Source of the DNA: Verrucomicrobiia bacterium
GTDB lineage: Bacteria; Verrucomicrobiota; Verrucomicrobiia; Limisphaerales; Pedosphaeraceae
Length of the DNA: 64,000 nt
Assembly (NCBI GenBank): GCA_036268055.1
Contig: DATAUW010000016.1
Coordinates: forward strand, 62,001 to 126,000
Direction: 5' to 3'
How positions within the stretch are numbered: position 1 is the stretch's first letter; each line of letters begins with the position of its first letter. A model generated the notes under the pieces. That model was not told the DNA's origin and made no database searches. It saw only the letters and a list, made by a program, of their open reading frames with translations. A program made the translations under genes and the position numbers. This document shows positions 53,543-55,755 of this stretch, in pieces.

Positions 53543-54352
53543 GTGTTGAAATTCAAACTCATCATCGCCTACGACGGCACGAATTACGCCGGTTGGCAGG
53601 TGCAGACCAGCGGTATCGGCGTGCAGCAACGTGTCGAGGAAGCGCTCGCGAAATTATTTCCCAGCGTCGGCCGCATCCACAGTTCAAGCCGCACGGACAC
53701 TGGCGTTCACGCGCTGGGTATGGTCGCGCATGTCGAGATTACGCCCACCGAGTTCAAGATGACGCCCGAAAAACTTGCGCTGGCCATCAACGCGCATTTG
53801 CCGGAGGACATTCGCATCCTTTCCGCGACCCGTTGCCCCGCGAATTTTCATGCGCGATTCGACGCGGCCGGGAAACAGTATCGTTACTTCGTTTGGAACC
53901 ACACGGCGATGAATCCGTTGTTGCGCCATCAGGCGTGGCAAGTTCCGCGCAAGCTCGACCTCGCCGCGATGCGCGCCGCCGCGAAATTATTTATTGGCAA
54001 GCATGATTTCAAATCGCTGGCGGGCACGCGCGATTACGAAATGGAATCCACCGTGCGCACGCTTCATCGCTGTGAAATCAAACGCAGCGGGCCGCTGATC
54101 ATGTTCATCATCGAGGGCGATGGTTTTCTTTACAAAATGTGCCGCGGCATGGCGGGGACGCTCGTGCAAGTCGGCCAGGGAAAAATTCCGGCGGATGAGA
54201 TCAAAAAAATTCTCGCGAGCAAAGACCGGCGCGTTGCGGGCATGACCGCGCCCGCATGCGGGCTCGTTCTCTGGCGGGTTTTTTACAAAAAATCTCCGCG
54301 CCCGCCAAAGTCGCAATCCAATTCCAGCGCCGCCGCCAAGCGCCGCAAATAA
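53543..54352 (+). CDS. truA: tRNA pseudouridine(38-40) synthase
   Basis: The 269-residue product starts at GTG 53543 (or TTG at 53546) and reads LKFKLIIAYDGTNYAGWQVQ. The catalytic Asp52 is in SSRTDTGVHALG. It modifies uridines in the tRNA anticodon stem. It follows ruvX by 22 bases. The last 70 bases overlap the 3' end of the convergent aat gene. Residues after about 250 are Lys/Ser-rich and not conserved. Confidence 0.96.
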   Translation: MLKFKLIIAYDGTNYAGWQVQTSGIGVQQRVEEALAKLFPSVGRIHSSSRTDTGVHALGMVAHVEITPTEFKMTPEKLALAINAHLPEDIRILSATRCPANFHARFDAAGKQYRYFVWNHTAMNPLLRHQAWQVPRKLDLAAMRAAAKLFIGKHDFKSLAGTRDYEMESTVRTLHRCEIKRSGPLIMFIIEGDGFLYKMCRGMAGTLVQVGQGKIPADEIKKILASKDRRVAGMTAPACGLVLWRVFYKKSPRPPKSQSNSSAAAKRRK

Positions 54353-54957
54353 TCCGTGCGCGAAATTTCCACCGCGCCAACTTGCCGGGTGGCGGGCGTG
54401 ACCATCTGGATGTCGAACAGCACAAACCCGCGCTCGCGCAGATGCATCACCAAATGATGGAGCGCGACTTTTGAGGCGTTGCTCACGCGGTGAAACATGG
54501 ATTCGCCGGCGAATAATCCGCCGGCTACCACGCCGTAAATTCCTCCGGCCAATTCGCCATCCTGCCAGCATTCGACGCTGTGCGCGTGTCCCAGTTTATG
54601 CAACTGCATGTACGCCTGAATAAAATCCGAAGTGATCCACGTGCTCTCGCGCCCTTTCGCGCGCTCCGCGCAACCGGCCATGACTTCACCAAAGGCGCGA
54701 TTGCGCGTGACGTTAAAAACTTTTCGGCGCAGCACCCGTTCGAGGCTCGCGCTCATACGAAATTGATCCAATTCAAAAATTCCGCGCGGATCGGGCGACC
54801 ACCAGCTTACGGGATTCGCCGTCCACGGAAATATTCCGCGGCGATAAGCCGCCAGCAAACGCGATGGCGAAAGGTCTCCGCCCACCGCGACCAATCCATC
54901 CGCGTCCGCCGAGCGCGGATCGGGAAATTCGAGTTGCGAATGGCGCGGCAGATGCAT
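54283..54957 (-). CDS. aat: Leucyl/phenylalanyl-tRNA-protein transferase
   Basis: The 224-residue protein has Aat signatures: FPDPRSADADGLVAVGGDLS, AYRRGIFPW, WWSPDPRGIFELD and a C-terminal GG(I/V)YGV...FAGESMFHR...FDIQ pattern. It transfers Leu or Phe to N-termini starting with Lys or Arg, tagging proteins for ClpS-ClpAP. It is 9 bases downstream of the DUF2017-like gene and in one unit with clpS. Its end overlaps truA. Confidence 0.96.
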   Translation of the reverse strand: MHLPRHSQLEFPDPRSADADGLVAVGGDLSPSRLLAAYRRGIFPWTANPVSWWSPDPRGIFELDQFRMSASLERVLRRKVFNVTRNRAFGEVMAGCAERAKGRESTWITSDFIQAYMQLHKLGHAHSVECWQDGELAGGIYGVVAGGLFAGESMFHRVSNASKVALHHLVMHLRERGFVLFDIQMVTPATRQVGAVEISRTDYLRRLAAALELDCDFGGRGDFL

Positions 54958-54966
54958 GGAAAATCT

Positions 54967-55449
54967 TCACTCCGCGTCGCCCGCGTTTCCGGCGCGCTCC
55001 GCGGCATTCACCAGTTGGAACAAAAAAAGTCCCGCCACGTGCGACGCTAAAAAATACGGCACATTTTTTTCGGCCAAGTCCGGCGGCAACTCGTTAATGT
55101 CTTCAGGCGAACCGCTTATCACCCAGCCGCCGACGCGCACATCGTTGAGCACTTGCAGCAGCCATTCGATCTGTGAGACGGGCAGGGTAAAACGGCAGCC
55201 CTTTTCGTGATCGCGAAAAACTTTGTCCGACTTGAGGAAGGCCGCCATGAGATTTTTGTTTTCACGGCGTTGTTCGGCCAGCGCTTCGCCGAGCAATTTT
55301 TGGCTCTCAGCATTGTCGGAGGATTTGCTCGGGCGCTCGTACGCCTCCGGCATCAACGGATATAGCTGAAGCACTTGGAGGAGCAACTGCTTCTCCCTCC
55401 AGTCGAGAGCGAAAACGATTTGTTCCGCGCCGGCCGAGATAAGTTTCAC
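54967..55449 (-). CDS. DUF2017-like protein between clpS and aat
   Basis: The start is GTG 55449, immediately after the clpS TAG. The 160-residue product is helical and acidic, with LLLQVLQLYPLMPEAYE and WLLQVLNDVRVGGWVISG, the latter like the LNDLRL..GT.L end of DUF2017 proteins. In actinobacteria a DUF2017 gene commonly follows clpS, and the same order is seen here in another phylum. The function is unknown; a role linked to N-degron recognition is inferred from location only. Confidence 0.65.
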   Translation of the reverse strand: MKLISAGAEQIVFALDWREKQLLLQVLQLYPLMPEAYERPSKSSDNAESQKLLGEALAEQRRENKNLMAAFLKSDKVFRDHEKGCRFTLPVSQIEWLLQVLNDVRVGGWVISGSPEDINELPPDLAEKNVPYFLASHVAGLFLFQLVNAAERAGNAGDAE

Positions 55450-55755
55450 CTATTCACGCTCCAGGGTTGCGTGCAGGCTGTACTTCTGAAGCTGATGCAC
55501 GTAATGTTCCGCCTTTTCGAGGGCTTCGCGCGCCAGGACGCTCTTGCCCTGGTTGTGAACCTGCAACATGTGAAATTCCGCCTTGGTTTTTTTCCATTTG
55601 AAAACGGTTTGGAAAACGTGCGTGACGAAATCCATCGTATTGATGGGATCGTTCCAGCACACGACAAGATAGCCCGGCTCGAGCGCCTTTTGCCCGCGCG
55701 TTTTTTCCTCCAGTTCAATGCCCGGCAAAACTTCAGGTGCAGCTATCTCAGCCAT
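55450..55755 (-). CDS. clpS: ClpS adaptor protein
   Basis: The 101-residue product has the ClpS core: YLVVCWNDPINTMDFVTHVF, where the usual NDD is ND, then VHNQGKSVLAREALEKAEHY with the VH..G pattern, and the C-terminal LQKYSLHATLERE. ClpS binds N-degron substrates and hands them to ClpAP or ClpCP. It heads a unit with the DUF2017-like gene and aat. Confidence 0.92.
   Translation of the reverse strand: MAEIAAPEVLPGIELEEKTRGQKALEPGYLVVCWNDPINTMDFVTHVFQTVFKWKKTKAEFHMLQVHNQGKSVLAREALEKAEHYVHQLQKYSLHATLERE

Follow-up and report, generated by a model that had tools for sequence, protein, structure and literature searches.

Several proteins are already known to act together with ClpS, the N-degron adaptor. 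In plant plastids, ClpF, which has uvrB/C and YccV domains, has been proposed as a co-adaptor of ClpS1 (PMC7966870; this and the other papers cited are represented by the parts of their text that were available). HspQ and MgtC alter ClpS substrate selection or compete with ClpS (PMC7966870). Here we compare these systems with a three-gene unit, clpS, a gene resembling the family DUF2017, and aat, found in a 64,000-nucleotide stretch of DNA from a Verrucomicrobiia bacterium; the whole of that stretch is referred to as the window. We conclude that the DUF2017-like product of the middle gene is probably a dedicated, constant partner of one subtype of ClpS, the DP type, and a co-factor for delivery to ClpC. 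It would resemble ClpF as a proposed second protein that works with ClpS for delivery to ClpC, but the uvrB/C and YccV domains of ClpF are unmatched in it in a Pfam scan to E 10. As a potential modulator of ClpS it recalls HspQ and MgtC, although it matches neither family in Pfam and NCBIfam scans.

A related gene arrangement was described by Iyer et al. 2006 as operon type 4d: in actinobacteria it groups ThiS/MoaD, JAB, cysteine synthase, and ClpS, with an "uncharacterized helical protein" next to ClpS. The available text lists the operon for actinobacteria only and gives the helical protein no proposed function. An annotated Tsukamurella record has the same gene set, in the row clpS, DUF2017, M67 peptidase, MoaD/ThiS, cysteine synthase, and the unnamed helical protein is therefore most likely DUF2017. 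A link between DUF2017 and ClpS in actinobacteria has been in print since 2006, without a function. In the literature searched, which mostly left out subscription papers, neither DUF2017 by name nor ClpS together with Rv1332 was found. Three points were likewise not found in print: that the clpS-DUF2017 pair is near-universal in the window's class, that it does not depend on Aat, and that it goes with DP-type ClpS. An earlier note on this DNA, made from the sequence alone, had called the middle protein an unrecognised accessory factor of the N-degron pathway. "Unrecognised" needs qualifying, since the helical protein beside actinobacterial ClpS had been seen by Iyer et al. 2006, as far as the available text goes.

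A divergent DUF2017 homologue retained behind clpS

By sequence comparison, the middle protein is a DUF2017 homologue, as the earlier note had supposed. When the single sequence was scanned against Pfam to E 10, DUF2017 was the best match (E 0.0026, 18.4 bits), and the only others were Dymeclin (0.13) and CSTF_C (3). The score lies below the 25-bit cut-off, so we use the term divergent homologue and do not count the protein as a formal member of DUF2017 (PF09438). Comparison of profiles by hhalign gave a much clearer result: the alignment of window-class relatives matched actinobacterial DUF2017 at 99.3% with an E value of 1.7e-20 over 150 columns and 19% identity. Individually, 90 of 103 window-class relatives match DUF2017 at E <= 0.1 (best, 3.1e-22), and PF09438 is matched by all 16 aligned actinobacterial examples taken from behind clpS. 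A profile free of actinobacteria (141 rows) matched the open reading frame (ORF) behind clpS at 38 to 70 bits in 79 of 80 actinobacterial clpS loci, which had been fetched with an actinobacterial ClpS consensus and whose titles are all actinobacterial except that of L233, a metagenome-assembled genome titled Acidobacteria. In the 80th locus, L189, the contig stops 40 bases past clpS.

The two groups share, besides homology over about 150 columns and their place behind clpS, the arginine of an LNDxR helix (Arg105 in the window protein), which is Arg in 98% of 142 rows from the window's phylum and in 100% of 100 actinobacterial rows. The predicted strands and helices of an actinobacterial member (L222) also come in the same order as those predicted for the window protein. 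They differ in that actinobacterial DUF2017 has, in the profile alignment, extra residues separating the first helix from the long one, and in their neighbors: aat at the window locus and JAB, MoaD/ThiS, and cysteine synthase in the Tsukamurella record.

Within the window's class, taken here as Verrucomicrobiae of the phylum Verrucomicrobiota, a protein search found the middle gene in 29 of 188 genomes, 27 of them among the 33 genomes of the window's order, and clpS lay upstream on the same strand in 28 of the 29 loci. With gene starts picked by script, clpS and the middle gene overlapped by 4 bases in 18 of those 28 loci and were separated by gaps of 151 and 159 bases in two. The frame is retained beside clpS in relatives with 21 to 46% protein identity, which, on the strength of these comparisons, is more than chance. 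All 27 order genomes that have clpS also have the middle gene, and the other 6 have neither. Profile searches that ignore position, with match positions compared with clpS by eye, extended this pattern. Profile A1 (28 rows) matched 47 of the 188 class genomes, and 18 of the 20 outside the order were matched directly downstream of clpS. Profile A2, searched over 240 genomes of the phylum, gave one match in each of 49 genomes, all of which have ClpS, and 43 of the 49 matches lie directly behind clpS.

We also collected 119 further ClpS loci, one each from 118 class genomes plus that of G013, where clpS is unlinked, and searched their six-frame ORFs with the profile in successive rounds. In 112 of the 119, plus L146 (304 amino acids, same start), clpS was followed by a family member, and one other match fell off that position (E 0.0082, single round). 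Because the iterated profile took new members only behind clpS, the position-blind searches are the check that matters. Altogether, clpS and the middle gene are paired in 141 of 147 ClpS-bearing class genomes (28 + 113). The six unpaired genomes are G013, where the gene is present and unlinked, four genomes of family f39 with an odd ClpS, and G132 (locus L086). Second, weaker ClpS matches in G030, G039, and G135 lie outside the locus set.

The same association with ClpS was seen among 149 Actinomycetota genomes, 69 of which had DUF2017 and 90 ClpS: both were present in 69, DUF2017 alone in 0, ClpS alone in 21, and neither in 59 (Fisher p 7e-24, with relatedness ignored). All but one (G290) of 70 actinobacterial DUF2017 matches start 10 to 143 bases behind the ClpS match. 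Genome G263 carries a tandem clpS-DUF2017-clpS-DUF2017 array (L321, G263:C50, contig positions 1525 to 3127), which indicates that the two genes were copied together. In one degenerate ClpS copy the pocket His is gone (FTREAQAEG in place of the VH seen in others), and one of the two pairs may thus have taken on a new role. The earlier note had expected conserved linkage to clpS in distant phyla; both the linkage and a DUF2017 profile match were found, and the link is stronger and wider than it had claimed.

These searches covered the window's phylum and Actinomycetota, plus five ClpS-bearing control genomes (E. coli, Caulobacter, Synechococcus, Deinobacterium, and C. glutamicum), among which DUF2017 (E <= 0.001) was found only in C. 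glutamicum. One actinobacterial DUF2017 searched against plasmids gave one weak match, in Nonomuraea. There were no matches to the actinobacterial alignment among viral contigs or to the single window protein among genome contigs. No ORF joining two of clpS, the middle gene, and aat was found among the loci collected when natural fusions were sought.

Two sets of DUF2017 relatives have unusual forms or settings. The 304-residue product at L146 (G135) ends in a charged, low-complexity C-terminal tail of more than 100 residues. L287 to L292, from family f61, stand away from clpS, and in L289 and L291 the gene adjoins what we take to be a FolE2-like GTP cyclohydrolase gene.

The earlier note had also tied the middle gene to aat, and this part of its proposal was not borne out in that form. 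In the 188 class genomes, aat is found in 117, ClpS in 147, and both in 105; of the 142 genomes in which both clpS and the middle gene are present, 41 lack aat. Even in the window's order, where 21 of 33 genomes have aat, 6 of the 27 with clpS and the middle gene are without it. The middle gene is adjoined by aat in 19 of 27 order genomes and otherwise, among the class genomes examined, only in G004; aat was not found in the 119 further class loci, whose fetched stretches reach about 2 kb downstream. In the actinobacterial set, aat is present in only 2 of 12 genomes. The presence of aat in the clpS-DUF2017 unit is a local addition. A protein that specifically serves Leu/Phe transfer could account for the adjacent genes and for G013, where the middle gene stays with aat and clpS is elsewhere. 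Against it stand the 41 class genomes, the 10 of 12 genomes in the actinobacterial set that lack aat, and 12 class genomes that have aat with no ClpS match (E <= 0.001). The middle gene tracks clpS, not aat; we rejected an Aat-centered reading, and service to Aat is close to refuted.

The ClpS subtype found with DUF2017

ClpS encoded beside DUF2017 mostly reads (N/D)DP(V/I)NLM where canonical ClpS has NDDxT, and the window ClpS reads NDPIN. The loop was taken as the positions of E. coli ClpS N34-D35-D36-Y37-T38-P39-M40, with numbering based in part on PMC8346999. The third-position Pro of the DP type is present in 240 of 247 ClpS sequences beside DUF2017: 134 of 141 from the class, 6 of 6 others, and 79 of 79 and 21 of 21 from actinobacteria, of which the 79 are biased by a query that carried the DP motif and the 21 come from 20 genomes hand-picked from the 69. 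In genomes with DUF2017 away from clpS, ClpS is of the DP type in 8 of 8. Without a recognised DUF2017, the DP type was seen in 2 of 45 fetched ClpS loci (0 of 20 in the window's phylum, 1 of 20 in Actinomycetota, and 1 of 5 in the class); the Actinomycetota loci come from 18 of the 21 ClpS-only genomes, with G286, G308, G318, and G433 outside the set. At the actinobacterial DP-type locus L312, the following ORF scored 20.0 bits against the family profile, where the best of 400 shuffles reached 11.1. At L086 (G132), the downstream ORF was matched by no profile. In these samples, DUF2017 is found only in ClpS-bearing genomes, is not seen with canonical NDDxT ClpS, and is independent of Aat.

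This pattern bears on the view that DUF2017 has a function of its own and is merely co-transcribed with clpS, for example as part of the actinobacterial ubiquitin-like (Ubl)/JAB/cysteine synthase unit. Its actinobacterial neighbors, a JAB peptidase, MoaD/ThiS, and cysteine synthase, would suit such a function, as would its place away from clpS in f61 genomes, G013, and G290. Yet none of the 69 actinobacterial and 49 phylum genomes that have DUF2017 is without ClpS, and the unlinked cases retain DP-type ClpS without exception. We consider an independent function improbable.

Two further sets of ClpS sequences were noted. The divergent ClpS of the f39 genomes (L167, L168, L178, and L179) has the loop NDDTHTY, DDDTHTY, or DDNEHSF and no DUF2017 behind it; the next ORF in three of the four presumably encodes a secreted EF-hand protein. 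Eleven Actinomycetota genomes (G210, G225, G240, G252, G264, G275, G286, G297, G308, G318, and G329) have two to three clpS matches each and no DUF2017 match; their clpS loops are not of the DP type where fetched.

The altered loop does not imply a defective adaptor. The pocket Asn and His are present in the aligned window ClpS (NDPINTM and HMLQVHNQG), at the positions of E. coli ClpS N34 and H66, which hold the alpha-amino group (PMC8346999). The nearest solved relative of the window ClpS is that of Mycolicibacterium smegmatis (53.6 bits, versus 31.8 for E. coli ClpS), which is itself of the DP type (WDDPVNLM) and, according to the entry titles, was deposited with PheAla and TrpSer dipeptides. 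This indicates that the DP loop does not abolish degron binding, and that ClpS of the DP type works as an N-recognin. According to a review, pocket residues are replaced in the ClpS of mycobacteria (PMC5515868).

Predicted complex and proposed role

ClpC is the likely unfoldase for the ClpS pathway in this organism. The source genome (5.1 Mb, 41 contigs, 96% complete, and with a single ClpS match) encodes two proteins with a double Clp_N repeat. One of them has a UVR-motif match at 20.5 bits, just below the cut-off of 21.5, and its gene immediately follows that of a protein arginine kinase (McsB, NF002194 above cut-off; G000:C2:58617-59000, L341). On the strength of the UVR match and the McsB neighbor, we read this protein as ClpC, the only ClpA/ClpC-kind unfoldase that the Clp_N search of the genome returned; ClpB fits the other best, on truncated reads. 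Given the position behind McsB, ClpC might be reached by a phosphoarginine route as well as by the N-degron route. In mycobacteria, M. tuberculosis ClpS binds ClpC1 (PMC6274998). The ClpC1 interactome of M. smegmatis did not recover ClpS, going by the available text (PMC10433963), and for that reason cannot speak on DUF2017.

An AlphaFold2 model of the DUF2017-like protein, with a mean predicted local distance difference test (pLDDT) score of 91.9, consists of a beta hairpin, a short and a long helix, a second hairpin, and two more long helices. A Foldseek search with this model found nothing at E <= 0.001 (best, 0.7), and the best VIA Z score, 5.1 for mitofusin, is within the usual range for helical bundles; the fold may still be a known one. 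Sequence profiles searched against the PDB gave no solved DUF2017 and nothing convincing, the best being RecA at 0.0067 over 27 columns.

For a co-fold with ClpS, we used a read-through of an Aldersonia locus whose clpS and DUF2017 genes share one reading frame, with a 66-base spacer that supplies a natural linker of 23 residues. The alignment had 32 paired rows (of 33 found) along with 16 for ClpS and 21 for DUF2017. The model had a pLDDT of 87.8 and a predicted template modeling (pTM) score of 0.85, with the linker and N terminus disordered. If the placement of ClpS were off by 12 to 20 A, a pTM of about 0.62 to 0.71 would be expected by arithmetic, assuming about 187 ordered DUF2017 residues, 75 ordered ClpS residues, and 45 disordered residues. 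The observed value is above this range, so the model seems confident of the packing of DUF2017 on ClpS; we take it as apparent support for such packing, not as proof.

The constant pairing with one ClpS subtype, the tight coupling of the genes, and the co-fold are the grounds on which we favor a role as ClpS co-factor. ClpS and DUF2017 would form a complex in which the helix bundle packs beside the degron pocket and leaves it usable, and this complex, not ClpS alone, would hand N-degron substrates to ClpC. As a co-adaptor, DUF2017 might set substrate choice or delivery, as ClpF may for plastid ClpS1. In the genomes of the window's order that have aat in the unit, the adaptor, its partner, and the Leu/Phe N-degron enzyme would be made together. 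The accessory factor of the earlier note is thereby probable as regards ClpS, given the DUF2017 relation and the clpS linkage in two phyla; its tie to aat fell away, and the action in the N-degron pathway is what we infer. A bolder and distinctly more tentative version would make DP-type ClpS a second kind of N-recognin: a fixed heterodimer, usual in many actinobacteria and across the window's phylum, whose DUF2017 subunit sits on the DP loop and first helix of ClpS and thereby reshapes N-terminus choice and hand-over to ClpC.

The same genomic evidence fits an anti-adaptor or regulator that blocks or gates N-degron binding or frees ClpS from ClpC and is removed under stress. Anti-adaptors of ClpS are known, acetylated HspQ and MgtC (PMC7966870), and translational coupling through the 4-base overlap would yield the two proteins in nearly equal amounts, as a stoichiometric inhibitor requires. 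The near-constant presence of DUF2017 with DP-type ClpS, L086 aside, suits a fixed part of the machinery better than an optional brake. We prefer a co-adaptor because the gene is constant, not optional, and regard a brake as unlikely, if the most serious of the competing explanations. A small, directly linked partner that is predicted to pack on ClpS might also stabilize or fold DP-type ClpS and have no part in substrate choice. The crystal titles of DP-type M. smegmatis ClpS mention nothing besides ClpS and ligand; this ClpS therefore folds in the absence of DUF2017, and a pure stability or assembly factor has little to recommend it.

Several observations weigh against the proposed ClpS co-factor. 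The pTM of 0.85 comes from one co-fold without a negative control, predicted aligned error, or coordinates, and both binding and the direction of its effect are inferred. The M. smegmatis crystals, which hold ClpS alone per their titles, mean that dipeptides can be bound without DUF2017. All six f61 genomes where the gene was found have it apart from clpS; 7 of the 247 ClpS sequences beside DUF2017 are not of the DP type, and L086 has a DP-type ClpS without a recognised DUF2017. On a ClpS tree of 230 rows and 88 columns with weak support, in which L312 was scored as DUF2017 present and L086 as absent, the presence of DUF2017 requires one change. The subtype association may be a single old event inherited together, and its strength is exaggerated by any statistic that counts each genome as independent. 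Coevolution between the two proteins is weak when phylogeny is taken into account. Re-pairing within three broad clades left a seemingly strong signal (top-30 mean of 1.055 versus 0.680 +/- 0.030 in 20 re-pairings), but against 30 phylogeny-simulated null alignments the top-30 value compares with 0.992 +/- 0.039 and the top-10 value of 1.186 with 1.156 +/- 0.063, and only the counts of inter-protein scores above 0.7, 0.8, and 0.9 exceed all 30. Since the phylogeny-aware simulation removed most of the signal, the contact pattern between the first ClpS helix and the LNDxR helix was not used as evidence and is a mere lead for the two-part N-recognin.

If the ClpS co-factor reading is true, ClpS has a constant partner in two phyla, and a subunit has been missing from assays of ClpS by itself. 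The reading would also be relevant to the difference between the mycobacterial and E. coli ClpS pockets, a question raised in PMC5515868. The pairing with clpS offers the DUF2017 family a function to test.

Gene layout and neighboring features

All on the minus strand, clpS, the middle gene, and aat form, as the earlier note described, one tight unit with gaps of 0 and 9 bases, and positions 54283 to 55755 span precisely these three genes. The window ClpS scores 69.2 bits against PF02617 (E 2.6e-19; cut-off, 23), and Aat is above cut-off for PF03588 (229 bits, E 3.1e-68) and TIGR00667 (206.9 bits). The location of the DP loop at the degron pocket is taken from PMC8346999.

Features of the clpS-DUF2017-aat unit, with positions numbered from the first base of the window
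Feature	Positions	Strand	Basis
clpS, 101 aa; N-degron adaptor, DP subtype	55755-55450	minus	PF02617 match
ClpS residues 35-41, NDPINTM; DP loop at the degron pocket entrance	55633..55653	minus	aligns with canonical NDDYTPM
DUF2017-like middle gene, 160 aa; GTG start abutting the clpS stop codon	55449-54967	minus	DUF2017 homology
Predicted helix 91-111 of the DUF2017-like protein; contains LLQVLNDVRVGGW, including Arg105	55117..55179	minus	predicted model and alignment
aat, 224 aa; leucyl/phenylalanyl-tRNA--protein transferase	54957-54283	minus	PF03588 and TIGR00667

The 12 class genomes with aat and no ClpS match (G019, G028, G037, G046, G053, G061, G065, G082, G095, G100, G157, and G166), 11 of which belong to genus g28 and several of which are one-contig assemblies, have a maker of N-degrons without a known recogniser. 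At the downstream end of the unit, aat (stop at 54283, minus strand) and truA (53543 to 54352, plus strand; TIGR00071 above cut-off) converge, and their 3' ends share 70 bases.

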